DNA of 64,000 nucleotides from Monosiga brevicollis MX1. Taxonomy: Eukaryota > Opisthokonta > Choanoflagellata > Craspedida > Salpingoecidae. Positions 23,349-49,946 of this stretch are shown here, piece by piece. Below the pieces are notes generated by a model that was not told where the DNA came from, searched no databases, and saw nothing but the letters and a program-made list of their open reading frames with translations. The stretch is from the NCBI RefSeq assembly GCF_000002865.3, contig NW_001865054.1:58557-122556 (forward strand). Reading direction: 5' to 3'. A program made the position numbers and the translations under genes. Within the stretch, counting starts at the first letter, position 1. The number at the start of each line of letters is the position of its first letter.

Positions 23349-25995
23349 ATGGCCAAGTTCAACGTGAGCAACGTGGTGGTGGCCAACGCGAACGACATCG
23401 CGGACGCGCTTGACCAACTGCCACAAACACGCAAGATGTTATGCATCGACTCCAGACTCCTCAATCCCCTGCAGCGCATTTGCGGTGGCAAGATGCTACA
23501 GGCAAGTTCTTTTGCATCGGCTGTGTGTCTTTCCAATGTGCCACAAGCCGATGGCCGGTTCGGAGTGCGTCAAACTGAGCGTCTGGGTGTGGTCCACAAC
23601 TGGTAGGAGCACGGCGTGCGCATCCCTTACTACAGCCTCGACGACAATCCACCCCCCTTCAAGGAAGATCACAGGTGCGCAAAGTCGGGTCTGTCCTTCC
23701 CTCGGCGTCCTCAGTCCCCCCAGCTCTGCTTTTTTTTTTCCTCTGCGCACCAAGCTTGCGATCTTGCATACCTTGCTTGTGAGACCACCATCGATCCATG
23801 GATCCCCCAGCCGCCCTCAGCCTCTTTTGCGCTGCCCGCCCCATAGCCTTGTCTACATATGTCAGAACGACGCAGCAACCTTGCGGCGCATTGCCAAGCA
23901 CATTCGGCATTTCAGCCACGAGCGAGGACTGGATGCGCCGCCGCGAATCTGGGCGCATGTCTGGCAGGTTCCCTGTGCTGATACTCTTTCCGATATGGTG
24001 TGGGAGTCGGAGGGTGTGTACGGCTTGGTGGAGAGTCGGAGCTGTGAGCTATCCCTTATGAGCATTGACAACGATGCCTGGAGCCTGGGGCTGGGGCGGT
24101 CATGCTATCAGACGCACCTTCAGGGTGATTGGTCCGTAGTGGGATACTTGCACCAGGCGCTGCTTCGGCTCCATTTTGTCTACGGGCCCCTCCCGCAGCT
24201 GGCAGCACTGGGCCCTCTCAGTGCCGCCATCCTCAAGCTTTACGAGTCCTCAGTCTCCTTGAGTGCCGTGCCTATGCACCGTCGCGCGCCTCCTGAAGGC
24301 TCCTTTGATCAAGTTGTGCTGCTGGACCGCACTTGCGATATGATCACCCCACTGTGTACTCAACTCTCCTACCCTGGGCTACTGGCGGAAACCTGTGGTG
24401 TCCATGCCGGCATCGTCTCAAGTCGTACATTAGATCCGGAAGGCCCCTTGAGCAAGGTTGGTGGGGCATTCAAGACTTGTGATCAAATCTGTGCCTCTGG
24501 GCGCGATGTGTGAAGTTCTAAGCTTGGTATAACGCCGTAGGTGACGCTGCATAGCCATGAGGACGAGTTCTACAAGGAGCTGCGTGATCGGAACTACGGC
24601 GCAGCAGCCCCGGCTTGCAAGAGCCACATTGCCCGCTACGCGCGTGACTCTGATACATCTCAACTAGACGCCAACAACCGTGAGTTTACCCCGATTTAGC
24701 TAGCTGGTGGAACATTTCATCCAACCAACTGAGAGGTGCTTCTCCTGAAATGTGCTTTCCCTCATATGGGCTAATGCTTACCCATGTGTCAGTGGAGGCC
24801 ATGAAGAAGATAACCTCCGAGCTGCGTGGCATCAAGGTCAGTGCACAGAGGCGCCAGCTGCCTCTGAAAAGAACCATCGACGAGCGCGGCCGGCGTCATG
24901 AGCCACGCGTCTCATCAGCATCACGAGCAATAAGCAATGAGTCACCTCTCATGCCGAGCTCTTGATTGGACCCTGCAGGAACATGAACAATCATTGACGG
25001 CGCATCTCTCGCTCATGGGCCAAGTCAACAAGCTCAAGTCCACTGATGTCTTTTTACAGGCCATGGATGCGGAATGTGCCATTCTGGCTGGCCGCCTGTT
25101 TGAATGCACAACAGGAGCCATAGAAACGATTGAGGAGCTCATTTTCAGGCAATATGACAAGCGAGTGGTGTTACGCCTCCTGATGCTCTTGAGGCAAGTT
25201 CTCGTCTAATTTCTATTTGATTCTAAAAGCTGGCATTGTAGTCCCCAAACGCGCCCCGGTAATGTTTTTTTTTTTGTCGGTTTCACTGCCCCCTGACCTC
25301 GCATTCTGACCCAATGTCACCTCGTCACGGATCTAGGATTTGCTATGCCGACTTGGCCCCGCGTGAATGGGAGCGCCTCAAAGTGGCATTTTACCATGGC
25401 TATGGCTTTGACTACATTGCCATGTTTGAGTTTATGGAGGCTGCTGGGATCGAGCGGGTGTGTCTTTGATTCGAGGCGTGACCAACGCTTGGATACTCGC
25501 CCTTTTCTTGCGTGCTTTGAAAGCCTCATCCTCTGCATCTTTTTGTTTCTCTGCGTTTGGTGGTCATCACCGTTGATTGTGCTTCCTCTTCTCCGACACG
25601 AGCAGGCAGGGCGTTTTGGTGCACGCTGGCGTGACCTACGCGACAAGTGGCCAACTGTGCTGCCCGAAAATGAGGATGAGGAACAGCTGCTGTTTGGAGG
25701 TGCGCAACCCATGATTCCGCGGATCGTGAGCGATATCTTGGAGGAGAAGCTCACGGCCGAGCACGAGAAGATGCTGGCTGATGGCACCATCAATCTGATG
25801 CGATGGTCTCCCCCTTCGGATGGCCCACCTCCGCGTACCAAGCGCATTCTTGTCGTAATTGTTGGTGGCATCACATACCCAGAGCTGACTCTCCTGCGGC
25901 GGGTCGGCCAGAAATTGGGTCGCGAAATGATCATGCTCTCGGATCAGCTCCTCACAGGAAACCACCTCGTTGAGCCGTTGTTGACACATGCTTAA
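23349..25995 (+). CDS. VPS33: Vps33, Sec1/Munc18-family subunit of HOPS/CORVET
   Basis: An SM protein that binds SNARE bundles during endosome-lysosome fusion. Exons include 23349-23501, 23607-23674, 23847-24456 and 24541-24679, then several more to the stop at 25993. Family landmarks are S-L-V-Y-I-C-Q-N-D, D-T-L-S-D-M-V-W-E-S-E-G, D-R-T-C-D-M-I-T-P-L-C-T-Q-L-S-Y-P-G-L, E-E-L-I-F-R-Q-Y-D-K and the C-terminal V-V-I-V-G-G-I-T-Y-P-E-L-T-L-L-R. The T-P-L-x-T-Q-L-x-Y-x-G-L segment is closer to VPS33A than VPS33B as I recall them, but the paralogue is not settled. The first intron is GC-AG (exon ends CTACAG, intron begins gcaagt). The start ATG is preceded by CCGCCACC, a good initiation context. 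Confidence 0.92.
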
Positions 25996-26449: not shown

Positions 26450-29090
26450 ATGCCACAAGACGAGAATCGGCAAGGGGCTCCGGCCGCTGCAACCACGCCA
26501 GGTGGGCTATGCTTTGGCATGAGGCTGGTGCGGGGAGGACTCGATAGTGACGTTCCATCTTGCCTGAAGCATCATTTAAAGCGACAGGGAGCAGGATCAA
26601 GATCCAACATTCCACACCCTCCTTTGTCACGCACCCAGCTCACTGCGCCCTTGGAACTTGCATGATGTAGCGTCCGAGGCCCCCGACCTGGCAGAAGTAG
26701 GTGAGCTGATCAAGTCGCGATGGCGTGTCCAGACCAAGGTGGGCGCTGGCGGCTTTGGCCAAGTTTACCTTGTTGACGACGTTCTTGGGACTGGAACAGC
26801 CGCTGCCAAGGTGGAAAGCAACAAACTTCCCAAGGTCTGTGTAGCCCTGGCAGGCATGGCCTGCGTCGTCCAGCAAAGTGGCATCAGATTGCCTTTGGGT
26901 GTGGATCGATTAATTGTTGAATGGACGACAAGTCGTGTCAAGCCCTGACCCAACGCTAGAGCACTCATCGGCCTCGTGGCTTTGTCTAGGGCGTGTTAAA
27001 AATGGAGCTGGCCGTACTACGATTGGTGGGCGATCGGCCTCACTTTCCCACAGTGCTCGACTTTGGGCGTAATGAGCGCTTCAGCTACATGGTGCAGCCC
27101 TTGTTGGGTCGCAACCTGGCAGATCTACGCAAGTGCTCGCAGGGAGGCCGTCTTGAAAAACGTTCCGTCAGCTATTTTGCTTGCGAAGCGCTTCAGGCCC
27201 TCGAAGCTGTAAGTCGTGCGTGGAAGGCTCTTTGACACATGGCTTGTCCATCTGACAGGTCACCTACCTGCCTTGATTGTCTTAACCTTTACTGCCAATC
27301 CTCACGGCGCGGTCTGTCGACCTGCTCTTTCCATCTTTTTCTCTATTTCTTCTCCTCTCTGTGCACATCCTGCACACACATACACACACATTCTTGCGAA
27401 ATGGAACGATGGACAAACGAACATTATCTACTAGCTGCACGATCGCGGGATTTTGCATCGCGATATCAAACCGTCCAACTTTGTAGTGGGCGGTTCACCC
27501 GAGACATATCGAAAGATATACCTGATTGACTTTGGGCTCGCGCGGTTCTACAAGGACAACAACGGAGCAGTGCGGCCCCCTCGGCCGGTTGCGGCCTTTC
27601 GCGGCACTGGTCGTTACGCCAGCTTGGCTTCACATAATAATCAAGAGCTGGTAAGCCCATACCTGCTCTCCCAGTGCGAGTTGGCACCATTGTTCTTGGC
27701 TCAGGCATCATAACCCAAGCATCACTGCAAAGAAGAGTGTAAATTTGACCTTTGTTCCACACCACGGTGTCTTCCCTTAGGCTCCACGAGATGACTTAAT
27801 TTCATTGCTCTACTCGTTGATCGAGCTCATCCTGGGCGCCTTGCCCTGGCGTCATCTTCGTGACCGTGACGAGATTCGCAAGCTCAAGGAGCAGTATAGC
27901 TTGGATGCGCTCACCCAGGGTCTACCTACGCCCTACGTCCACTTGGTGACCCAAGTAGCCAACCTGGGTTTTGCAGACCGGCCCGACTATAGCGCTATGA
28001 TTCGAGTTTTCAGCATGGATGCCACGGACTCGAAGAGGCGCTATCCACCTCGGCGTGTGGCTTGGCGGCCTGACGAAGCCCTTGCTGCTCAGCACGGCCA
28101 ACCGGTCGTGGGCGAGCGCGTGGTAGCCCATGCCCATGTTCGGTCTGCATTATCATCCGGGCTGGCTGGTCTGCAGCTCAAGCAAGCTGCTGCCCAAGCT
28201 GCTTCACCTGCCCCTGCTGCGCCGGCTGTTGCCCCTGTGAAACCCAGTGGGCCTAAGATGACACTTGCCGTGAAACAGAAGGATTGCAATGCTGACCCCC
28301 CGCTTCTGCCGATTACAGAGCAACGGCCCACCCACAAGGGTCTGTTGCACGATCGAGTGCGCCAATTAGTCCAAGATGAGGGCGAAGCTGCCGTAGCATC
28401 CGGTGCTGGCGCCGATCATGGTGATGATGCAGCCAGACGTCGGGTCGAGGGTGGTACGCACGGCAAGGCGCGCGACCTTAAAGCAACCGCGAACACCAAA
28501 ACCGGTCTACTTGATAATCCAGCACTGGCCACTGCGCGACGGGGCTCTAATGCCAGCGCAGGGCGATCGGGCCAACATGCCTTTGCCCCATCATCAGCAC
28601 TGCACGCCGTTCAGGCAACCCAAGGCGTGTCCAAGGCAACTTCGATGCCTGGCTCGGAGCATGACAGTGGAGCTGACGTGCCTGATCCTGCGCCTGGCAG
28701 CACATTTGTGCAGCAGGTCTTGAAAGAACCTGCACCCGTTGAAGTTTTGGAGGAGTCTGATAGCCACTCGAACCTTTCAGTCGATTCGCCAACGCCGCGG
28801 CATGTCCAGCGGCTGCGGCGTGCAGGTACTCTGGAAGTCGAAGCTTCGCTTCCACGATCGGCTACGCCCCCGCGGCGTCGCAGCCACTTCCCTCAACCCC
28901 CACCCCCGCAGGAGCGACCGCGCCGGCCATCGGGCGCTGCTGTTCGACTCAGGTACGTTGCATTGTACACTGAGGCGTTGTTGAAGGCCATCAGAAGGCC
29001 CAAGTGCTTGGCTTCGTTCAACAAATACATGCGATAACGACTCACTTTCCCGTGCCTATGGGCTCTTGGTGTTATAGACATCGGCGCTGA
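26450..29090 (+). CDS. TTBK: Tau-tubulin-kinase-like CK1-superfamily kinase
   Basis: Six exons (26450-26501, 26671-26834, 26990-27208, 27435-27650, 27781-28952, 29078-29090) keep frame and give 611 residues. The kinase domain is N-terminal: glycine loop [10 protein letters not shown], then [16 protein letters not shown], catalytic loop [15 protein letters not shown], and R-G-T-G-R-Y-A-S in the substrate-binding loop. [15 protein letters not shown] and L-P-W-R follow. These match TTBK/Asator more than CK1 itself. A long low-complexity tail rich in Ala, Pro, Ser and charged residues follows, with no further domain recognised. The first exon (ATG at 26450) was chosen because its donor phase fits the acceptor at 26670. 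The short last exon is uncertain: without that splice the frame stays open to 29037. Confidence 0.88.
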
Positions 29091-29630
29091 GTGATCACAT
29101 GAGCTTGCTGCTGTCTGAAAGGGATAGCAGCAGGAAGAAGCTGAGCTTTCATTCAAATCTAGTATCCGTAACCCCCTTTCTTGTTGCGCTTCTTTCCACC
29201 AAACGGTCTGCTATCAATGCTCCATCCATCCAATCCCAAATGTTTTGAGCTGTACAAAGCACGAATACTTGACAATTGCAAACGATTGTCAAGAGGCAAA
29301 GGTCATAATACATGTGCATGTACAACAGTTAGGAGCTTATCATGAAAGCAGCCTGCAAAACGAGAAGCCCGCACACGCACACACATCACCCGATCTGCCC
29401 TGACTCATCCTGTACACGTTGTATCCTCCTTGTCCAAAAATTTGAATCAATCACACAGCTTGGTACTTGAAAGCGTGTTAAACTGTAACAAATCAAACAT
29501 GTGTGTTGAAACGGCTGTTTTCTTTGTGTGTGTCTCTTGTCTTTCTGTCCTCTCTCTCTCTCCCTCTATCTCTCTCTCTCTATCTCTCTCTTTCAATTTC
29601 GGTTGTGATTTTTGTCGTTGAACCGTCAAA
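29091..29630. promoter_or_regulatory. Intergenic, upstream of the HACD-TLC gene
   Basis: About 540 bases. A pyrimidine-rich TC repeat at 29540-29593 lies just before the start codon, a plausible core promoter or 5' leader. The remainder shows no gene. Confidence 0.45.
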
Positions 29631-32600
29631 ATGGCACCGCCACAGGGTCGCGGAGCCAGTGCTGCGGCCGACAAGGCCAGCTCAGGCGGAATTGTTGATG
29701 GCTACCTCATCATTTACAATGCGGTTCTTGCTGCTGGGTACGTGTATCTTGTTCGTCAAAAGCAAAGATTCACCGACGTGTTCTGAGCCATGGAGCGGCA
29801 ATGTGCCCCGTCAGCTGGACGACTTGCTCTGTCGCTCTCTTGCTCGCTCGACATGGCCATCCTCGGCATCGCTATCCTGCATTCTCCCTCTGTTTCTTCT
29901 TTTCCTCCCCGCTTTTCTGCGCACGTTTCCCGCTTCTTCCTCCACCTTGTTCGCCTCCACTGTTGGTCACGCTCTCTCAATCGGCATGCTCCGCCCTCTC
30001 TTCCCCTATTATTAGCTGGTCCATGATCTTGTATGATCTGCTCCGCCCGTTTCATCTCTGCAATGGGGTGGCTGGTGAGCGTGAGCTTGACCTCGCGCCA
30101 GCCTGGCTCCCCGCCCAAGCCCATGGCATCGTTTGCACCAATAGCACAAGTGGCATGCCCCTCTTCCACGCCCTGCAGGTCTGCCCTGTTTGCGAGCCCC
30201 TTGACTACTCTTGGTCGTATTGAGTGTCCAGTACCCAGACACAGAAAGAGCCAAACTCACTGTCTGGCACCTCTTGTAAAACCCCACGCGCAGATCTTCC
30301 AAACCGCTGCCATCCTCGAGGTCGTACACGCGGCCCTCGGCTTTGTCAAGGCCAAGGTCTCAACCACTTTTATGCAGGTCCGACCTCTTGCTCGCTCGGT
30401 CCCTCCCTCCTGCCCTTTCCTCCCTTGACCCGCAATTCCAGTTGTCAGAGGCCCTCGGCTCACGCGGCTTGCCTCGTTGCTCTACCCTCCTCCTGCCCCA
30501 ATCCGCTTGCTATAGGTCCTCTCGCGCGTAATGCTTGTCTGGGCGGCCTGCTGGATCAACCCCCGCATCATGAACTCCCTGGCCTTTTACACCATGACGT
30601 TTGCCTGGGCCGTCACTGAGGTTGGTGTCCTATCTTTTTTTTTTTTTTTTCCCCTCTCTTCACATTGACCAAGCGCTCCACATCACAGTCTCACCGACCG
30701 CTGCACGTCGTGCTAGGTGGTGCGCTACAACTGGTACTGGACCAAGCTCTTGCTTGGCGATGCCCCTGGTTTTCTGACCTGGTGCCGCTACTCCTTCTTT
30801 GTCGTCCTCTACCCGCTCGGCGTCGCGGTACGTCCCTCTAGCCCATCATCACAGCAACCCATCAGCACTCGCGTTCCACTCTTTCTGTCTATCTTTTTGT
30901 TTTCTCCCTCAATTTGAACCCCCTGTGTTGGCTCTCCGTACGATCCAGTCGGAAATTGCCTGCATTCTTCAAGCCATTGGCTACTATGATGCTCTGGCCG
31001 AGGAGCAGCGCGTACCGGATGACGACGAAACTGCCCAGTTCCTCGCTCGCGTCGCTCTCACCTTCAACTACACCATCATGGCCTTCCTGTCTCTCTATCC
31101 CATCGGTCAGCACTGCCGTTCTTTCTTTCTTGCTTTTGATGATTCCTTTGCCTTGACCTTTGTAAACCTCGCCGTGATATCTCAACGCTCGCTTCGTCGT
31201 CCAACGCCACCCCGCCCCTCGCTGCAGTTTTTCCGGGTCTCTACATGCACGTGTGGGCCCAGCGTCGCAAGGTCTTTGGCAAGCGCCGCCCTGCTCGCCC
31301 CGAGCCCACCGAGGGCATCCAGTGGCCTGCCGACGCTACTGGCACTCGCAGGTAACCATGGTTTTCTGCATAACTTGCATGCCCATGCATGTTCGCTGTT
31401 CCCTCAACCCCAAACTCACCCTGCCCCTCTATAGTACAAGCTCGACGGGTCAAGCCGTGCTTGCACGCAGCGTCATGGACGTGGATCCTCAGGCAGCGGT
31501 GGCCGTCATGAAGGAGCGCAACTGGCGCTTTGGCTACGGCAAGCATTTCATCGAGAACGTGCGCATCTCGCTGCGCACTCCCGAGACTGCTCTCAAGGTT
31601 GCCCAAACGGGTCTCGACTACATGCACAACCAGTTTGAGTTTGTTCGTGACGGCAAGGTCATGTCCTTGGCCACTGCCATGAGCACCATCACGGCCAGGT
31701 GCGTCTTGCCAAATCCGCCTGACTTCCCTCTCTGGCCTCATACGCTCGCGTCCGCCTCATGTTCCCCTTTCCACGTGGCTTGCCCCTGATCCAAAATTTG
31801 CACACGCAAATTCTGATTGGCTTCCCACAGCTTCCCGGGCACCATGACCATCAAGGGCTCGGGCAAACGCGACCCCGTGTACAAGGTGCCCTACCGTCGC
31901 AAACCTTACCCGGAGCAGTCTCCCCTTGAAGATCTCACCGGTTTGTCAAGCGTCATGACTAGGCATCCCCTGCTCAGTTGTAGTCGGTGCTTTGTTGTGC
32001 CTGCTGCTTCTCTCGTCCCAACTCATCCCGTATCACTCGTGTAGGCGAAGCGTTGAAGAAGCAACTTGATCAATGGGTCAAGAATGGCACCATCGAACCC
32101 AGGTCTGGCTTGAAGCTGTGTTTGACACCCCTACCTTTCTCTATCGTGCGTTGCCTAACACCTTCCTTAATTTTGACCTTTTGTGGTTCAGCGCCCGTGA
32201 TGCCATTGCTGCCGTGGCAGACCACGACGAATGGGTGGATCTCAGCGACAAGTACTTTGTCCTTCTTGGTGCCGGCTCTGGTTCGTCCTGTACACCCATA
32301 TCAGACAAGGTGTCTGGCGCACGCACCACCGCTGACCTCGCGCTTTGTGGTCCCTCGCCTCGCTGGCTGCATGCTGCCCTTAGCCATGGGCCCCTATCTT
32401 GTCCTCATGGCTCTCGGGGCCAACGTCATTGCCCTCGACCTCGACCGCCCGCAAATCTGGGAGCGTCTGATCAAGGTGGCTCGCGAGAGTGCCGGTACCT
32501 TGATCTTCCCGACCAAGGTACGACTCGGCTCTGGCTGTCAAGGCTGAACGCGTGGCTCGCCCACAGAAACGATGCTGCCACACTCAACCACGCTGCGTGT

Positions 32601-35600
32601 GCCGCATGCTGTAGAAACCCGTGGCTGAGCTGACTACGGACGAGCTGATCTATGCCAACGCTGGCGCCAACCTGTTCACCGACACGCCCGAAATTTGCAA
32701 CTGGGTGTCTGACCTCATGCCCAAGGAAGAATTTATTGTTGGCGGGTAGGCTGCCCCTCGTCCCATGGCGCTCCTTTTTGGTCTTCTTCGTTTTCTTTTG
32801 CTTGGTTTCGAGGTGGTGTTTTGCTGTGTACGTGCAGCAAGTGATTTACTTTGTTGTGCGCTTCAATAGATATGCCTATTTGGACGGCGAGAAGCATGTG
32901 CGCGTCTCGCTTGCCATGGATGCCATCAAGGCCGGTGTGATCCGTCGCCGCAAGACGGTGACAACTCTGGCCTACCTCTGCTCGCCCACCGACGTCTTTG
33001 TGGTGCGTGGATGACGCAGGCTGCGCATCATGGTCTGGTGTATTTGCTTTTGATTGATAGTTCTTCTCACGTCATAAATTTTGCTGCACTGGGTGCAGGT
33101 CAGCACGGATGCTCGTGATGCGGCCGCGGCCAACTACAAGAACCCTGGCTCGGTCAAGACATTTGTCTCTGTCCTTCGCACTGTCATGAAGAAGGCTTGC
33201 ACCAAGAACGTCTTGCCCCTGGTTCAGGATGCTTCCGGAACTCGCACCTATGCCATCAACGACGGTATTGTTGTGCAGCAAGGTGAGTTTGAGGCCCGGT
33301 AACCGGTCAGGTTCAAGTGTGGGCTATGATGAATGAATTTGTGGCATTTTTATGTGCTTTCTCTTTCCGTCAAAGCGTGGTTCCGTGTCTCGACCCCCGC
33401 TCTGCTGCCGCGTCTTTGTTTCTCTCTATTCATCTTCTGGCTCGTTTTGCCCCGAGTATAGGTCCCAACTATGCTTTGGCCAAGCGCCTGCAGCACTGGC
33501 GTGCCATGGTCGCTCGGTAAGAACCTTTTGCTTTGCAGCAGGCGTGGGAATTGTACAATTGCACTGGGTTCATGACAGTATTTTGGGGGCTCTGATAGCG
33601 CGGGGGGCTCTCGTGTGTCATCCAACATTGCCCCCTCCACGGCGACGCTGTCGGTCGTGCACAACAAGAGCTTTGCTGCAGCCTACGGAGGTTGGAAGCA
33701 CTTCCCGGCCTTTGAGGTTGCTTGGCAGGTCAGAGCACCAACCCTCGGTCACACTGCTTGCGCACAAGCTTGTATCTCACATTTTCTTGGGGTGCGGTGC
33801 GTTTGGGGGCCCATAGGAAACCTCCAACGCGGTCATGGGGGCGCTGCTGATCCACGACGTCCGCAACGAGCAGAGCAAGGCCAATCCGTCCTTTGAGTTG
33901 TCGAACCAGCTTGAACAATTTCGTTATGGCTCCTTCCATGGTGGCGTGTGGCGCTCGGGTTACAAGGTGGGTGGGACAGGCACACGAACATGCCTCGCAT
34001 GAGTGATGCATCACAGGTTCCGTGGCTCATTGGCATTGTTCCACTTGGCACTACAACAACAGGTCGGCTCGATTGGCGAGGCCTCGGCTCTGCTGTACTA
34101 TCTTAGCATCTACCGCTCAACGGTATGTCTCATCCAAACAAGGGCCGTAGAAGGGAATCTGGCTAGTGGACACTGTTGTGCTCGATCAATGTGCACATTT
34201 AAATTTCATCCTCACTGTTGTTTTTGTTTTGTTTTTCTTTTATCATAAATATTGTCTAGCTCCTCGTGTTGCTGACTCTGGCTGCCATCGCTATTGCACC
34301 TTTCTTCGATGTCTTCAATGAGGTAAAGCTCACTCAGAATTTGGCAGCAAGGCCCTCATCATTTGTCAAGGTTGCATCCAGCGTGGCTCACTCTTTGCAT
34401 CACATTGGTAGCCGCTGCAACAATTTCTCCTTGAGTATCGCCTGGACAAGCTCGTTGATGAACAGTTCTTGATCTTGCTGGGCACCCTTTTGTTCTTCCG
34501 CACCTTTGCGCAAATTGCTGGCAAACGATACAAGGCCGCGCCATACTTTTTCAAAGGTTTGTTCAAACATCCACTTGGTCGCTCATGCATCTCGTCGCTA
34601 GAAGTCTTCTCACAACGTCTTGCCCTGCCCGTGTCTTTGCCTGGCTGCCTTATGTTTATCCTGATCGTGTCAGTCATTTGGTTTACCGGAGTGGTTATCT
34701 GGCAATGGAGCATTCTGAGCCAGCAATCGTGGCTGCCTTGGTACTTTGGTGGGCCCTACGTGCACGATCCCACGCTGAAGCCGGATCCCGTCTGGGCTAT
34801 TGACTATGATATTGCCGTGCTTTACAAGGTATTGGCCTCGCGCCTTGCAAAGATTTGCACTCTCAACGATGCCCTGGCGCGTATGCAACTGCAACGACTC
34901 GGACCTTTCCTGACGTCATTTTCACGTGCACTACCTTCATCACCCACTTTATTAGGCTGGCTTTGCCTTCCATTTGCACAACGCCATCGTGGATGCGGTC
35001 ATTGGTGCCAAGGTGGCCTTTTACATTCACCACGTCATCACCGTTCTGCTGATTGCGTCTTCTTTCAGTCAAGGCTACCTGCGCTGTGGCTCGCTTGTTT
35101 TCTTTGTTCACGACATTCCCGACATCTTTGTCTCCTTGACCCGAGGTGCGTCCGTTAGAAATGGGCCTATGGGGTATCCACCTTGTTCGATCAATGTCCC
35201 CTTTGACGCGCGGTTGACTTGACTGTCCTGGTCATGGTTGATGTTCTTGTTTTTGGTTTTAGCCATGATTGCCATCAACAGCCCAGCCATGTCTGCGGTT
35301 GCCGGCTCCATGTTGTTGCTGTCATGGTTTGTCTGCCGTCTCGGATACATGGCTATGGTACGTTTGCAGCACCCATGGTCCTTGGTCTCGACTTTTTAAG
35401 ATTTTCTCATGAGATGCCTCAACCTTTGTTTTCGCTCTTTTTCAACATGCGTGGGCCAACCTTCGGTGATTGTATCAGCTGGCAACCGAAGTGGCCTACA
35501 CCTCGCGCTTCGACACCACGGAGATGACCTGCTTTCTCACTATGCACTGCGGCCTGATCGTTCTTCACGTCTACTGGTTTTTCTTGATCATCCGCATGTT

Positions 35601-35910
35601 CAGCAACTTTGGCAAATCAGGGGGCCGGGTCCGTATTTTGCAAACGGACAATGCTCCCATGGCTGCTCACGAAAGGCATTCAACTCACTCTCCTCTCATC
35701 CTTGCCGTGCCGTCTGCATGAATCCAACAGAAGGTTGAAGATCTTAGCGAAGTCAAGGGCCGTCTTTCTGCGTACGTGAGCCAGCTTGGCAAATTTTTGA
35801 TGTTGATAAACCATACGCTCGATCCTCATGATTTGCTGTTGGTGCTTTTCCGGTGCATAATCGACAGCGATGAACAACGCCGCGCACGCAAGAACAAGAA
35901 GAATGAGTAG
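29631..35910 (+). CDS. HACD - Rossmann-like - TLC fusion protein, predicted ER membrane
   Basis: One reading frame runs through compatible splice sites across three parts. (1) 29631 to about 31350: 3-hydroxyacyl-CoA dehydratase (HACD/Phs1). It shows Y-N-A-V-L-A-A-G-W, F-Q-T-A-A-I-L-E-V-V-H-A, V-L-S-R-V-M-L-V-W and T-E-V-V-R-Y-N-W-Y. The dyad is Tyr in V-L-Y-P-L-G-V and Glu seven residues later (A-S-E), the spacing known for Phs1. (2) About 31430-34120: soluble region with a dinucleotide-type loop L-L-G-A-G-S-A-M-G-P and strand A-N-V-I-A-L-D-L-D, family unknown. (3) About 34260-35740: transmembrane helices and a TLC/Lag1-like core with F-Y-I-H-H-V-I-T and V-H-D-I-P-D-I-F. The C-terminus K-K-N-E is a KKxx ER-retrieval signal. 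HACD enzymes dehydrate intermediates of very-long-chain fatty-acid elongation, and TLC ceramide synthases use such acyl-CoAs. Channelling is inferred. The exon between about 30070 and 30290 is uncertain. Two or three separate genes is the main alternative, but spliced phases argue against it. Confidence 0.82.
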
Positions 35911-36367
35911 CCAATGCACTAAACTGCATATCCCTGCTATCATCAATCTCGCCATCATGGCCTTTTCCTCCTTCGCCATCCTCCCCTTGCCCACCGTGCG
36001 CACTACTGGCCCGAGAGCCGAGCCGTCCTCGAACGCCCCCCGTTCAGGCTCAGCTCCTGTGCTGGCCGCTCGCGTGGCAATCCCTTTTAAACGTTCAGAG
36101 ACTCAACCGATTACACAATTGAGACCCACAACCCAACTGGGCCAAATGGTTTAATAAACATCGACCCGCCAGGTCGCTGTGAAAATGGCACGAGCCCACA
36201 CCAATGCCGTGTTGTCGAAGCCTTGTTGCTTTGCCTTCTTGCTTTAACACCTCGTTCACGACAAGTTGTCGCTCTCAACTTGCTTTCCTTTCATTCAAAC
36301 TTTTGGTCTTGAAATTTTAATTCCAACTTTCCCCAAATTTTTAATAAAAATTATAACGTTCACAAGC
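35911..36367. other. Intergenic, HACD-TLC 3' flank and PIG-O promoter
   Basis: About 460 bases without a gene. An AATAAA hexamer near 36151 could be the polyadenylation signal of the upstream gene. The region 36300-36355 is AT-rich, unlike its surroundings, and probably marks the promoter of the downstream gene. Confidence 0.45.
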
Positions 36368-39300
36368 GATGAGGGCAGACCAGCAACGTCGTGCGTCCTG
36401 GACGCGCATCGCAGGTGCGGTGACAAACTGAGCCTGTGGCAACTTGGGTTGATATGCTGGGCCACAGATAGGTGCAGGAGGCTGGAAGACGTATCAGCAT
36501 TCTCACCCACCCGCCCGTCTTCCACGTGGCCTTTGTGCTTCGAGCAGGCTGGGTCGGAACCACAGCACTGTGTCTGGCCATCGGCCTGTACACCTTTCTC
36601 AATGGGTTTTTGCTGGCGCGCCATGCCTTGGAGGCGACGAGCAGCTGCCATGATGCAGTGGCAGCCACTGCCATGCCCTCGGCCCATGTATCTAACCTGG
36701 GACAGTGCTGGTCACCCTTTCAACCGTGCGTCCTGGAGCGCCTCTGATGAAAGAACCTGATCTGCCAGCCCATGCCTCACACACTCACCATTGCGATGCT
36801 GCAGTTACAAGCGAGTGGTCATCCTAGTTGTAGATGCCCTACGACACGACTTTGTGGCACCTGATACAACTGCTGAGCCACCGACCTGGCACAACCAACT
36901 CCCGTACATGCAAAGGTTTGTTATCGACACCTGGAGGCTGGGAGGCCAGCGCGATTTTCGTCCGCCAGTGTCATGCAGTTGTGGCTCACGATGATCATGA
37001 TCATGCTAATTTTGGGACAAATTGGACCAACAGCTTACTGGTGCAGAATGCCTCTCAAGCGCGCTTGTTTGAGTTTTGGGCTGATGCGCCCACCACGACG
37101 CTGCAGCGGCTCAAAGGGTTGACTACTGGTGGACTCCCGACGTTCTTGGATCTGGATAGGTATGAATTAGACAATAGTCTTACAAGGCACGGCTTCACCC
37201 GATGCCACCTTGTCCGTACCCGTGGCATGGACTCTTCATCAACGGTGCACCCTTCCCTTGCACAGCAATTTTGCCGGTACTGCCATCACCGAAGACAACC
37301 TCATCGACCAGCTGAAACGTCAAGGCAAGCGGCTAGCCTTTGTCGGAGATGACACCTGGGAGGTGAGCCACGATCCCGTTGGGTTCTGTTTTTACCCCTT
37401 CTTTGCGACTTTTACCATCTCCTTTTCTTTTTTTGTCTGCTCCTGCTCCTGCTCCTCTCTACCTTTTTACCAGAGCCACCTTGCTCTTGGAAGCGCACTT
37501 GCTACCCTGACGCGTGCTGGATGTCATGGCAGGGCCTTTTCCCTACTCAGTTCGATGAGATGCATCCCTTTCCCTCCTTCAATGTGCGAGACTTGGAGAC
37601 GGTGGATCTGGGTGTGCGACGTCAAATGCCGAGTTTCCTTGCTGACCCCTCGTTGCAGGTCATTGTGGGTCACGAACTGGGCGTCGATCACTGTGGCCAT
37701 CGGTGCGCCTCATCACCTCCCCACCCCAACCCCTCACTTGCCTTGACACGCTGGCAATGCGTACTAACTTGGGCTGGATGTGGTTCACAGTTTTGGCCCT
37801 AGCCACCCGGCCATGGTGCGCAAGCTGCGCGAGGTGGATGATCATGTAGCACGAGTGAGTGATTGACCTCTGTCATTGTCTTGGTGCTACGATGGTGTCT
37901 ACGCCGTCAGCAGCAACGTCTCAACGCTTGACTACTATTCACTCTTCCTAGATCATCCAGTCACTGACTCCATCAGACTTGCTGCTCATCCTGGGCGACC
38001 ATGGCATGACAGCCTCGGGTGACCATGGTGGCGACAGCACTGCGTATGTTCAAGTTTGAGTTTGTTTTCATGTCGCAACTTTGGGGTGGGCGTACAGGCA
38101 GCTTCATTCATTCCCTGCCCCACGTTGCAAACTTATTTCCTTGGCTCTTACTCCTCAACTGTTCCATTTTATTGACATTTTCAGAGAGCTCGGCGCGGCT
38201 CTGTTTGCGTACGCTCCTGGTGGCCTGAGCTCGCCACCCTCGACACTAGCACGGAGGCGTGTGGATCAGCTTGATTTACCCGCAACTGTGGCCTTAGCGC
38301 TGGGTGTCCCCATCCCTTTCAACTCGCTGGGACGATTCATTTGGGATGTGCTGCCGCACAACGCCACACAAGCTCAGCTTGTTGAAACGGCCGGCATCAA
38401 TGCTGCTCAGGTCTGTCAATGATGGCCTTATACTACGGGCAATGGCCTTGGCTCCAAATCACAGACAAAGGTGATATCAAGCTGCGAAGGGGAGTCGAGG
38501 ATTCATCGTTCTGCACGATCCTAGGTGGAGCGCTTTTTAACTAGCTATGCGGCTGTATCTCCTGACTTTGCTGGTAAGCGCTGGCACGAAGGCATGTGAC
38601 ATCCATCTCGTGTTCCCGCCTTCACGCACAAGTCTTTGTTGTAGCCAATCGTCGGTCAGCTCTGCGCCAAGCCTACGCGCGCGTCCTCGACGCTTTGCAG
38701 GAAGCTCGACAAGAAAACTACTCGGTGTGTCAGCGTGTACACAGTTCTTTCACATCGCCTTCTAGTACACCTTGGTGCGCTCTCATCACACCCACTGCCT
38801 CGCTCCCCTTCTTTGCTTAACTGCCTCCTGCTTTGCTGGCAACCCATGCGACAACAGGAAGCAACTGCCACAAAGGCTGTTGGTGCAGCCTCTGAATTTA
38901 TTCACGATGTTCAACTCGTCGCACGACAATCGTGGGCCACCTTTGATATTGGTTGGCTTTGACGTAGCCCAGCGTTGACGGCTTTTGAACTGCGTCTCTA
39001 GTCCTGAATCTGACAACAATTTCGCTATGCCTGTTCAGTACCAATGTGTGCAGGTGTCGTCTTGCTGATGGCCATGGTTGCCTACCTGATCCTGGCTGTG
39101 GAACAAAATCAACTTCGTCACCAATGGCTTCAGATTCTTTCTGCACTTCTGGTGGGTGGCGCTGTGACGCGTGGCATGCTTGATGCGCTCACGCTGTTTT
39201 GACTTTGGACTTCTTTGTTGCCATTGTCTTGTTACCCCTAGCTGGGTGCAGGTGTTGGTGTGGCATTATTAAGCCTAGAACACTTGCTACCTGTGCCCAT

Positions 39301-47267: not shown

Positions 47268-49946
47268 ATGGTGCGGCCTTCATATCTTGTTTTCTTATGC
47301 GCGCACGCGCTCTCCTTTTTTTTTCCCCGAAGAGCTGCGGATGGCTCGTGGGCTTATGTACTCACTTGCTGCTCTTGGATCTCGGGCTGGCTCTGCAGGC
47401 TGACTACAGTGACGCCAACAAGTATGGCCTCGTCTTCAGCGTCTCCGGTCCTGGTAAGTCGCGCCAACACATCTGCTTTGCTCTTTGCCTCAAGTTATTG
47501 CCGAGCCCTGTCTTGGCTGGCAGCTGGCATGCATTCGGGAGTGCACTTGGCACGATGCCAGTCCGTCAAGACAGACATTAGCTGATGTTCTCTTGTGCCT
47601 TTTCGCATCCCTTTTCCTCCAGTCGTTATTGCCGAGCGCATGAGCGGTGCGGCCATGTACGAGCTTGTCCGTGTCGGTCGCTCGCTCCTCGTCGGTGAAA
47701 TTATCCGTCTGGAAGGCGACCAGGCCACCATTCAGGTTGGTGCTCCATCTTGTCGCTGGAAGCATTGCCATTTTGTATGGTCATTTTTGTGCGGCAAGCG
47801 CCAACATTTTTTTAGGTCCACATCATGACGCTGCTGCTGCATCTGCCCCGTTCTTGTTTCCTCATGATGCGCATCGCACCTTGGCTACCGCCCCGTCCCC
47901 TTGTACTTATCAGGTGTACGAGGAAACCTCCGGTGTTACCGTTGGTGACCCCGTCATGCGCACCGGCAAGCCCCTTTCCGTCGAGCTTGGCCCTGGCATC
48001 CTCAACTCCATCTTCGATGGTATCCAGCGCCCCCTGGATGAGATTGCCACCCAGACCGAGAGCATTTACATTCCTCGGTACGCTGCTGTTCCTGGTCCCC
48101 CCTCCCATTCCGCACGTTTACGGCCCAAGGCCAGCTTCAAGCTCAGCCACTTCACTCATCACTTTTTGCCCGCCTTCTCGCGTCCGTGGCATCACAATGC
48201 ACAGTGGTGTGACCGTCAACTCGCTCGATCGCACAAAGAAGTGGAAGTTCACCCCCAGCAAGGACGTGAAGGTTGGCGATGCCATCTCGGGTGGTCACAT
48301 CTACGGCCACGTCTACGAAAACTCCCTCATCACGTATGTTTATAACCGCACCCCTCACCTTGATGTTGTTCAAAACACGGCCCATCAGTCACACACCCTG
48401 TGGTGTGTGTGGTGTGTGTGTGTGTATGCTCACGTTTAACCTCATGCTGGACCTCCTGCCTGTAGGGATCATCGTATCCTGACGCACCCCCGCAGCCGCG
48501 GTACTGTCACCTGGATCGCGCCCGAGGGTGAGTACACCATTGAAGATACGGTCCTCAAGACCGAGTTCATGGGCAAGGAAATGGAGCACCGCATGTTGCA
48601 AGTGTGGCCCGTCCGTCAGATGCGCCCCGTGACCGAGAAGCTGGCTGCCAACCATCCCCTCCTCACTGGCCAGCGTGTCCTGGACGCCCTCTTCCCTTGC
48701 GTCCAGGGTGGTACTACTGCCATTCCCGGTGCCTTTGGTTGCGGCAAGACTGTCATCTCCCAGTCTCTGTCCAAGTTCTCCAACTCGGACATTATCATTT
48801 ACGTCGGTTGCGGCGAGCGTGGTAACGAGATGTCTGAGGTGTTGGCTGAGTTCCCCGAGCTTGAGATTGAGATTGGAGACCGCAAGGAAACCATTATGAA
48901 GCGCACGGCCCTTGTTGCCAACACTTCCAACATGCCCGTGGCTGCCCGTGAGGCCTCCATTTACACTGGTATTACCCTGTCCGAGTATTTCCGTGACCAG
49001 GGCTACAACGTGGCCATGATGGCCGACTCTACCTCGCGTTGGGCCGAGGCTCTTCGTGAGATTTCCGGTCGTCTGGCCGAGATGCCTGCCGATAGCGGTT
49101 ACCCCGCCTACCTCGGTGCCCGTCTGGCCTCTTTCTACGAGCGCGCTGGCCGCGTCCAGTGCCTTGGCGTTCCCGAGCGTATCGGCTCCGTCTCCATTGT
49201 CGGTGCCGTGTCCCCTCCGGGTGGTGATTTCTCGGATCCCGTGACCTCGGCCACTCTTGGTATCGTGCAGGTCTTCTGGGGTCTCGACAAGAAGCTGGCT
49301 CAGCGCAAGCACTTTCCCTCAGTCAACTGGCTCATCTCCTACAGCAAATACATGCGTGCCCTTGACGACTTTTATGACAAGAACTTCCCCGACTTCCCCG
49401 CCCTGCGTACCACGGCCAAGGAAATTCTGCAGATGGAGGAGGATCTCTCCGAAATTGTCCAGCTCGTCGGCAAGGGCTCGCTCGCCGAGACAGACAAAAT
49501 CACCCTTGAGGTGGCCAAGTTGATCAAGGACGATTTCCTTCAGCAGAACGGGTACGCCATAAACCCAATGCGTGCTCGTAATCACATTCCTCATGCCGCT
49601 TTTATGTCATCTTCCGCCTTCTCATCTCTCTTTTTGCGTGCCTTTTGCTTGTCACAAATGCAGTTTCTCGCCCTATGATCGCTACTGCCCCTTCTGGAAG
49701 ACTGTGGCCATTCTGCGCAACATGGTTGCCTTCTACAACCAGGCCCGCAACGCTGTCGAGACGACCAGCAACAGCGACAAGAAGATCACCCTCTCTGTCA
49801 TCAAGGAGCAGATGGGTGACATCATGTACGAGATTAGCTCCATGAAGTTCCAAAACTCGTGGGAGAAGTCACAGGAGGACATCATGAAGGTCTACGACGA
49901 CCTCAGCGCTCGCATGGCCGAGAAGTTCCGCTCCCTTCTGGATTAG
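47268..49946 (+). CDS. ATP6V1A: V-type H+-ATPase catalytic subunit A
   Basis: The ATP-hydrolysing subunit of the V1 sector, which acidifies endosomes, lysosomes and other vacuoles. The first coding exon appears to hold only the ATG (47268-47270, donor gtgcgg), followed by [18 protein letters not shown] (47400 on). Later landmarks are [27 protein letters not shown], the Walker A loop [30 protein letters not shown], and [12 protein letters not shown]. The long exon from 48468 to 49551 carries most of the ATPase domain, and the last exon ends F-R-S-L-L-D. Nothing suggests an intein. Conservation with animal subunit A is very high. An intron near 48335-48466 contains GT-rich simple sequence. Confidence 0.97.

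Follow-up and report, generated by a model that had tools for sequence, protein, structure and literature searches.

Could a single polypeptide of the choanoflagellate Monosiga brevicollis MX1 join steps of fatty-acid elongation to the making of ceramide? The question is raised by a locus in the window, as we call the whole stretch of 64,000 nucleotides analysed here (C41:58557-122556 of a genome of 39.47 Mb on 57 contigs). An earlier note, written from the letters of the window, had read this locus as a fusion of a HACD dehydratase, a Rossmann-type part and a TLC part, and had suggested a multi-step enzyme in one ER protein should the middle domain be a reductase.

Gene structure and domain organization

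The gene begins with the ATG at 29631 and ends with a stop codon closing at 35910; its 27 exons splice to a coding sequence of 3,231 nt (1,076 aa), and 26 of 26 introns, 82-278 bp in size, are of the GT-AG type. The features discussed below are as follows.

29631..35910, + strand: whole gene, HACD - SDR/KR-like - TLC/CerS-like; 27 exons, 1,076-aa frame
30300..31283, + strand: HACD (PTPLA) domain, aa 93-261; PF04387, E 2.2e-48
30810-30812 and 30952-30954, + strand: dyad Y185 and E192, seven apart in YPLGVASE
31228..31351, + strand: exon 7, where the HACD ends and the bacterial-type domain begins with GIQWPAD (31314); intron-free joint
31314..34122, + strand: SDR/ketoreductase-like domain, aa 272-783, exons 7-19; from tblastn, models and structure comparison
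32268..32394, + strand: glycine-rich loop GAGSAMGP, aa 454-461, interrupted by intron 11; from conservation and hhalign
32982..32993, + strand: SPTD, aa 584-587, with a possible catalytic Ser/Thr that follows a beta strand; 31/31 rows have [ST]P[TS]D
33470..33484, + strand: Y655-A-L-A-K659, candidate SDR catalytic YxxxK; Y[ATV]LAK in 31/31 rows
33684..33698, + strand: YGGWK, aa 699-703, not conserved; Y in 3/30, K in 1/30, both in 0/30 relatives
34260..34322, + strand: exon 20, hydrophobic stretch aa 784-802 joining reductase and TLC part; Kyte-Doolittle 2.43
34550..35595, + strand: TLC domain, aa 851-1038, with H929, H930, H956, D957, D960 and R993; PF03798, E 1.6e-19
35896..35907, + strand: C-terminal KKNE, fitting a dilysine (KKxx) ER-retrieval signal

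Splice phases had been said to connect all three parts, and the frame is indeed open from end to end; since the splice sites were set by hand to preserve it, without RNA, this openness is by itself partly circular as support. Independent support comes from the Pfam matches, which span exons 3-7 (HACD) and 21-25 (TLC), from the end-to-end alignment of a bacterial homologue with the middle part, and from a paralogue on contig C3, whose exons match exons 2-19 in length and in AG/GT borders. The in-frame coding signal runs through exons 19-27, each of which had a positive score in frame and negative scores in both alternative frames under a codon model whose training set was exons 2-18 of the gene itself, the weakest in-frame values being those of exon 20 (0.05 per codon) and exon 23 (0.07). 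The motifs of the earlier note (the dyad, LLGAGSAMGP at aa 452-461, YGGWK, His-His, His-Asp and KKNE) all stand where it had read them, and the terminal KKNE would fit a dilysine signal. The domains and their order are observed, and a single transcript through the TLC part is what we infer.

The dehydratase and its joint with the middle domain

The N-terminal part scored 164.4 bits with PF04387 (cut-off 27) and matches the solved dehydratase hpo-8 (22of) at E 5.2e-29. The dyad reported as intact is so, with Tyr185 and Glu192, presumably the HACD catalytic dyad, at a spacing of seven in a YPxGxxxE pattern. Judged by sequence, this part is a predicted 3-hydroxyacyl-CoA dehydratase (HACD/Phs1).

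The middle part had been started at 31430, which we correct to aa 272 (31314), within exon 7. The bacterial N-terminus GIQFPADHRGVRST (L054) aligns with GIQWPADATGTRST of the window protein, the first 12 residues of which are encoded in exon 7. In most rows the bacterial relatives open with G[LIV]xFP...ST, and the window protein reads GIQWPADATGTR/STSSTG at the joint, the slash marking intron 7, which falls within an S codon. Because the two domains meet in one exon, no splicing choice can part them there. The proposed fusion of HACD and middle part is thus borne out by a joint inside exon 7 and by the same joint in the C3 gene, and the HACD-reductase chain is almost certainly real.

A paralogue that stops before the TLC domain

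The C3 gene (50184-54855, minus strand, 813 aa) encodes HACD and the middle part as the window gene does; after exon 19 it carries, in place of exon 20, an exon of 60 bp that encodes a hydrophobic tail followed by a stop codon, and the TLC profile search of the genome gave no match on C3. The two genes share 95% DNA identity over 4.1 kb (exons 98.0%, introns 92.5%), and over exons 2-19 they differ at 14 of 747 residues with a dN/dS of 0.14 (NG86). In the core the differences number 0-11 per 300 bp, and at the ends 51/299 and 25/281 (left) and 66/225 (right); intron 2 has 33/114 and intron 18 44/93, and exons 2, 18 and 19 have 18/163, 0/150 and 13/60, respectively. We read this pattern as that of an old gene pair with a recently homogenised core, in which case both genes would already have had the HACD-reductase fusion beforehand, and the dN/dS within the core is soft evidence. 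Since both genes carry the dehydratase-reductase pair, and C3 does so without TLC, that pair would be the core unit and the ceramide link optional. The TLC domain may accordingly be dispensable or separate, which counts against a three-part chain.

Relatives of the middle domain

Compared with the Pfam, NCBIfam and PHROG families, the middle part gave no credible match. By tblastn it has an end-to-end homologue in Acinetobacter (38% identity, 96% cover, E 4e-95), found in two records named 'Acinetobacter phage' and in six Acinetobacter baumannii records of a plasmid collection, three of which exceed 3.6 Mb. A phage origin of the homologue was rejected: the two 'phage' records look like pieces of bacterial chromosome, and the stretch of 'Acinetobacter phage MD-2021a' that was inspected holds metH, dsdA, pitA, cynT and similar genes. 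None of 89 pattern matches in viral_contigs was a relative of the middle domain, and BFVD yielded no match at E <= 0.001.

Two short peptide patterns, drawn from two sequences and run over the 84,980 species genomes of genome_contigs, returned at least 36 bacterial loci, namely 33 from Acinetobacter and one each from Alkanindiges, a Xanthomonadaceae MAG and a Bermanella MAG. The family is rare in the genome samples, with 1 of 398 genomes in the phylum and 3 of 390 in the order of the Bermanella genome, 6 of 398 in the order of the Xanthomonadaceae MAG and 36 of 149 in the family of an Acinetobacter, the centre genome being counted each time. Identity to the middle part is 35-43% in the close family and 22% in two remote members (L062 and L068). 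The bacterial relatives are standalone: in the sample of the Acinetobacter family, 36 of 36 full-length matches have frames of 493-603 aa, which leaves no room for a HACD fusion. Outside the two HACD-fused genes, the family was found, in the collections searched, in gammaproteobacteria only. In a tree of the 17-row close family the two eukaryotic copies form a branch of their own, where long branches meet and forks are open. The bacterial gene neighbourhoods, compared by eye from annotated names or first frame residues, revealed no consistent or fatty-acid partner, which counts against the function proposed below.

Evidence on a possible reductase in the middle domain

The profile search of the middle part against SDR and other families that had been proposed as a check assigned no family. 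The SDR Pfam models (PF00106 and kin) gave no SDR family at E <= 1, and among PDB sequences a profile retrieved no SDR and a single-sequence query only one, at E 0.65. Full-length hhalign against SDRs, with an alignment of 23 of 24 loci (L088 left out, and L093 included as a wrong 30-aa frame), returned a probability of 23%, or 4.6% without the remote rows. The YxxxK end alone, in segments picked after the full-length comparison, scored 14.8, not better than shuffles, which reach a maximum of 18.35. Against these results and a Foldseek search in which 1 of 947 matches had E <= 0.001, AlphaFold models of two bacterial members show an SDR/ketoreductase Rossmann fold, predicted for the bacteria and not for the window protein. 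In structure, these models match a FAS chain best, in the region of its ketoreductase, and the KR fold of fungal type I FAS occupies rows 1-22 and 1-14 of the two comparisons.

Conservation was followed in 31 rows, mostly from Acinetobacter (26 from alignment A3, four further genomes and the window protein). The loop GAGSAMGP may be a variant of the SDR TGxxxGxG, and the hhalign register agrees in setting it against TGxxxGIG; the pattern GAxxExGP occurs in 30 of 30 relatives and GAxxxxGP in 31 of 31 rows including the window protein. S584 of SPTD is a candidate for the catalytic Ser/Thr. YGGWK, which the earlier note had singled out in the central region, was rejected as an SDR catalytic pair, being peculiar to the window protein; Y655/K659 is the better pair and fits the catalytic YxxxK of SDRs. 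In SDRs the Y and K lie at the start of a helix ahead of the last beta strand, and both bacterial models place them there, at the start of helix 380-398, as judged by secondary structure alone. Against this assignment, both remote relatives keep the Y but have Q instead of K (K kept in 0/2). The predicted fold of the bacterial relatives together with the conserved YxxxK favours the reductase-like reading of the middle part; we consider it likely to be an active reductase, presumably NAD(P)-dependent, and lean towards 3-ketoacyl-CoA as its substrate.

The TLC part and its relation to ceramide synthases

The TLC part scored 71.1 bits with PF03798 (cut-off 24.6), and its best solved relatives by phmmer are LAG1 (8qtn, E 6e-4), LAC1 (0.002) and CerS6 (0.05). 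According to a study of CerS6, the active site of that enzyme contains or adjoins His211, His212, His238, Asp239, Asp242 and Arg275 (PMC11919693). Residues H929, H930, H956, D957, D960 and R993 occur at a spacing identical to that of these six, so that H929/H930 and D957/D960 correspond to H211/H212 and D239/D242 in the Lag1p motif and R993 fits, by spacing, the place of the side-pocket residue Arg275; the place of its side-pocket companion Tyr189, by spacing, holds F907, a point against. With most active-site residues at CerS6 spacing, the part noted earlier as TLC-like is ceramide-synthase-like.

Ceramide synthases have a first membrane helix before the TLC domain. Exon 20, which encodes the hydrophobic stretch ahead of the TLC part, is 63 nt long and could be skipped without a change of frame.

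One chain or separate products

Whether the parts are truly one gene product was weighed against two alternatives. An artefact of the gene model or assembly, merging unrelated neighbouring genes, is conceivable for a model built by hand without RNA, but the HACD-reductase joint lies in one exon at two loci on different contigs, all introns are GT-AG and the domain matches are continuous over exons; we consider it highly improbable, and for the HACD-reductase part largely refuted. Alternatively, the locus may give rise to a pair of products: a HACD-reductase protein that terminates in intron 19 or at a different 3' end, and a TLC protein expressed on its own from an internal promoter. The C3 gene encodes just such a two-part protein of 813 aa, and reading into intron 19 meets a stop after 41 residues. 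On the + strand of 29001-37000, however, AATAAA/ATTAAA first occurs at 36153, 243 nt past the stop codon, and both exon 20 and exon 21 have an open reading in the frame of the gene and favour it. The earlier note had named independent promoters and start codons as what would undo the single chain, and here its case stands in part: exons 20-23 contain no in-frame ATG, and the first in-frame Met of the TLC part, aa 969, comes after His929-Asp960 and before R993, but the ATG at 34652 in intron 21 opens into exon 22 (aa 854) and would retain almost the whole Pfam TLC match (from aa 851). Its product would want exons 20-21, and hence the first membrane helix preceding TLC. Alternative first-exon candidates number 14, 16, 20 and 35 for exons 20, 21, 22 and 23, of which 3, 3, 0 and 5 have a GTRxG donor; the ATGs concerned include 33926, 33938 and 34006, with 34806 and 34869 applying to exon 23 alone. 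We regard two products as rather doubtful, and the TLC domain as probably part of the same chain as HACD and reductase.

Proposed function

In the elongation cycle, 3-ketoacyl-CoA is reduced and then dehydrated. We propose that the product of the gene is a single protein of the ER membrane made up of three enzyme modules, a HACD, an SDR/KR-fold reductase and a CerS-like N-acyltransferase, and assign this reading a probability of about 0.5. The N-terminal membrane barrel would be the 3-hydroxyacyl-CoA dehydratase (HACD/Phs1), and the central reductase, cytosolic and NAD(P)H-dependent, would most likely turn 3-ketoacyl-CoA into 3-hydroxyacyl-CoA. Steps 2 and 3 of elongation would then lie side by side, and 3-hydroxyacyl-CoA could pass straight to the dehydratase. 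Ceramide synthases start on the luminal side; the exon-20 helix, on the basis of hydropathy, would take the chain there from the cytosolic reductase. The C-terminal TLC part, as a ceramide-synthase-like N-acyltransferase, could use the elongated acyl-CoA, and the terminal KKNE, as a dilysine signal, would face the cytosol. The substrates, the use of NAD(P), the handover and the topology are all putative. Predicted HACD models are described in the CerS6 study as having the six-helix barrel common to CerS6 (PMC11919693), so two barrels would flank a soluble reductase here.

An exon-wise PF04387 search of the genome, which gives a lower bound, found only the window and C3 genes and no separate HACD; ELO elongases are present. 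A search for KAR with one exact DNA pattern gave no match, and among the 19 of 81 candidates that were scored in an SDR family search one, on C37 (L101), is presumably KAR-like by its TGATDGIG...YSATKA signature. A CerS-like exon on C50 (PF03798, E 3.6e-25) matches the window TLC at E 2e-10 by blastp with three sequences compared, and TLC genes on C46 and C52 are less similar to it. Since the KAR-like SDR and the CerS-like gene exist, neither activity is needed from the window protein.

The middle reductase might have another substrate, such as 3-ketosphinganine to supply the CerS part, or be a non-catalytic scaffold. SDR substrates are very diverse, the genome has a KAR-like SDR at another locus, the remote relatives are without the K, and 3-ketosphinganine reductase is an SDR that acts directly before ceramide synthase. 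In C3, however, the reductase is fused to HACD also without TLC, which ties the reductase to HACD; most of its bacterial relatives come from Acinetobacter, a genus not known to make sphingolipids; structurally, the closest match is the ketoreductase region of a FAS chain; and Y and K are invariant in 31 of 31 rows, mostly Acinetobacter. We consider another substrate or a scaffold unlikely. A fuller history, in which a FAS-KR-shaped ketoreductase was captured from bacteria and permanently fused to the only dehydratase, with a CerS added in one gene to feed ceramide, is put forward tentatively.

A natural ketoreductase-dehydratase fusion would be direct evidence of physical coupling in elongation, which one account describes for eukaryotes as the work of four ER enzymes acting in concert (PMC10864336), and would be a ready tool for testing the handover of intermediates. 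With a CerS attached, one protein would suffice to test how chain length is coupled to ceramide type, and the middle family (~515 aa, 33 Acinetobacter loci, no Pfam or NCBIfam match) gains a first functional hypothesis.

Comparison with known systems

The earlier note knew of no described fusion of this kind, and among the matches listed in our literature search, seen as titles and abstract starts with few subscription papers or preprints, there was likewise no HACD-reductase or HACD-CerS fusion. The parts are of known kinds, save that the middle family lacks a curated model in the searched libraries, and their arrangement does not occur among those matches. An uncharacterised gammaproteobacterial protein of ~515 aa (for example Acinetobacter CAH1085240.1) resembles the middle part end to end but is standalone. 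For the ketoreductase of fungal type I FAS alpha the identity is 11-14%; the window protein has no ACP, ketosynthase or other FAS domain (only PTPLA and TLC being above cut-off) and its middle part presumably acts on CoA esters at the ER. KAR/HSD17B12/Ifa38 have the SDR fold and the proposed reaction in common with the middle part, but their signature TGATDGIG...YSATKA, characteristic of KAR/HSD17B12, is absent from the window protein, which has GAGSAMGP...YALAK. CerS1-6 and LAG1/LAC1 share the TLC domain and the His/Asp/Arg residues at CerS6 spacing, but the similarity is weak, the Tyr189 equivalent is without a match, and the window TLC ends a HACD-reductase chain. HACD1-4, Phs1 and PAS2 are like the window protein in the full Pfam domain and the YPxGxxxE dyad; the known HACDs are, as far as we are aware, single-domain proteins, whereas here the HACD is fused to a reductase-like domain of 512 aa, with a TLC domain in one of the genes.

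Homologues of the middle domain and neighbouring genes

Comparison of the window copy with its paralogue on contig C3 (L020) revealed a gene-conversion-like divergence profile. Loci on two other contigs of the genome and neighbours within the window are as follows.

G000:C3:50184-54855, minus strand: L020, HACD-reductase paralogue of the window gene, without TLC
G000:C37:676646-676972: SDR exon of L101, with TGATDGIG and YSATKA
23368-24510, plus strand: Sec1 family exon (E 2.3e-10)
36360-37500, plus strand: GPI ethanolamine-phosphate transferase-like exons downstream of the window gene
48440-49675, plus strand: match to the ATP-synt_ab family (PF00006, E 9e-73), resembling the A subunit of V/A-type ATPases

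The exons at 36360-37500 contain RVVILVVDALRHDFVAP, which resembles GPI ethanolamine-phosphate transferase; the single frame scanned within them (36472-36744) gave no Pfam match.

Among bacterial homologues, the full-length relative L019 lies in CAKLQH020000010.1, titled Acinetobacter phage MD-2021a, of which the stretch shown carries the ordinary chromosomal genes metH, dsdA and pitA; the phage name looks like a wrong label. In the remote subfamily comprising L062 and L068, Q replaces the candidate catalytic K. Behind L068 lies a putative oxidoreductase frame, at least 463 aa long.

The motif pair in L101 is presumably the KAR/HSD17B12 signature, and L101 accordingly appears to represent the genome's canonical KAR/HSD17B12.
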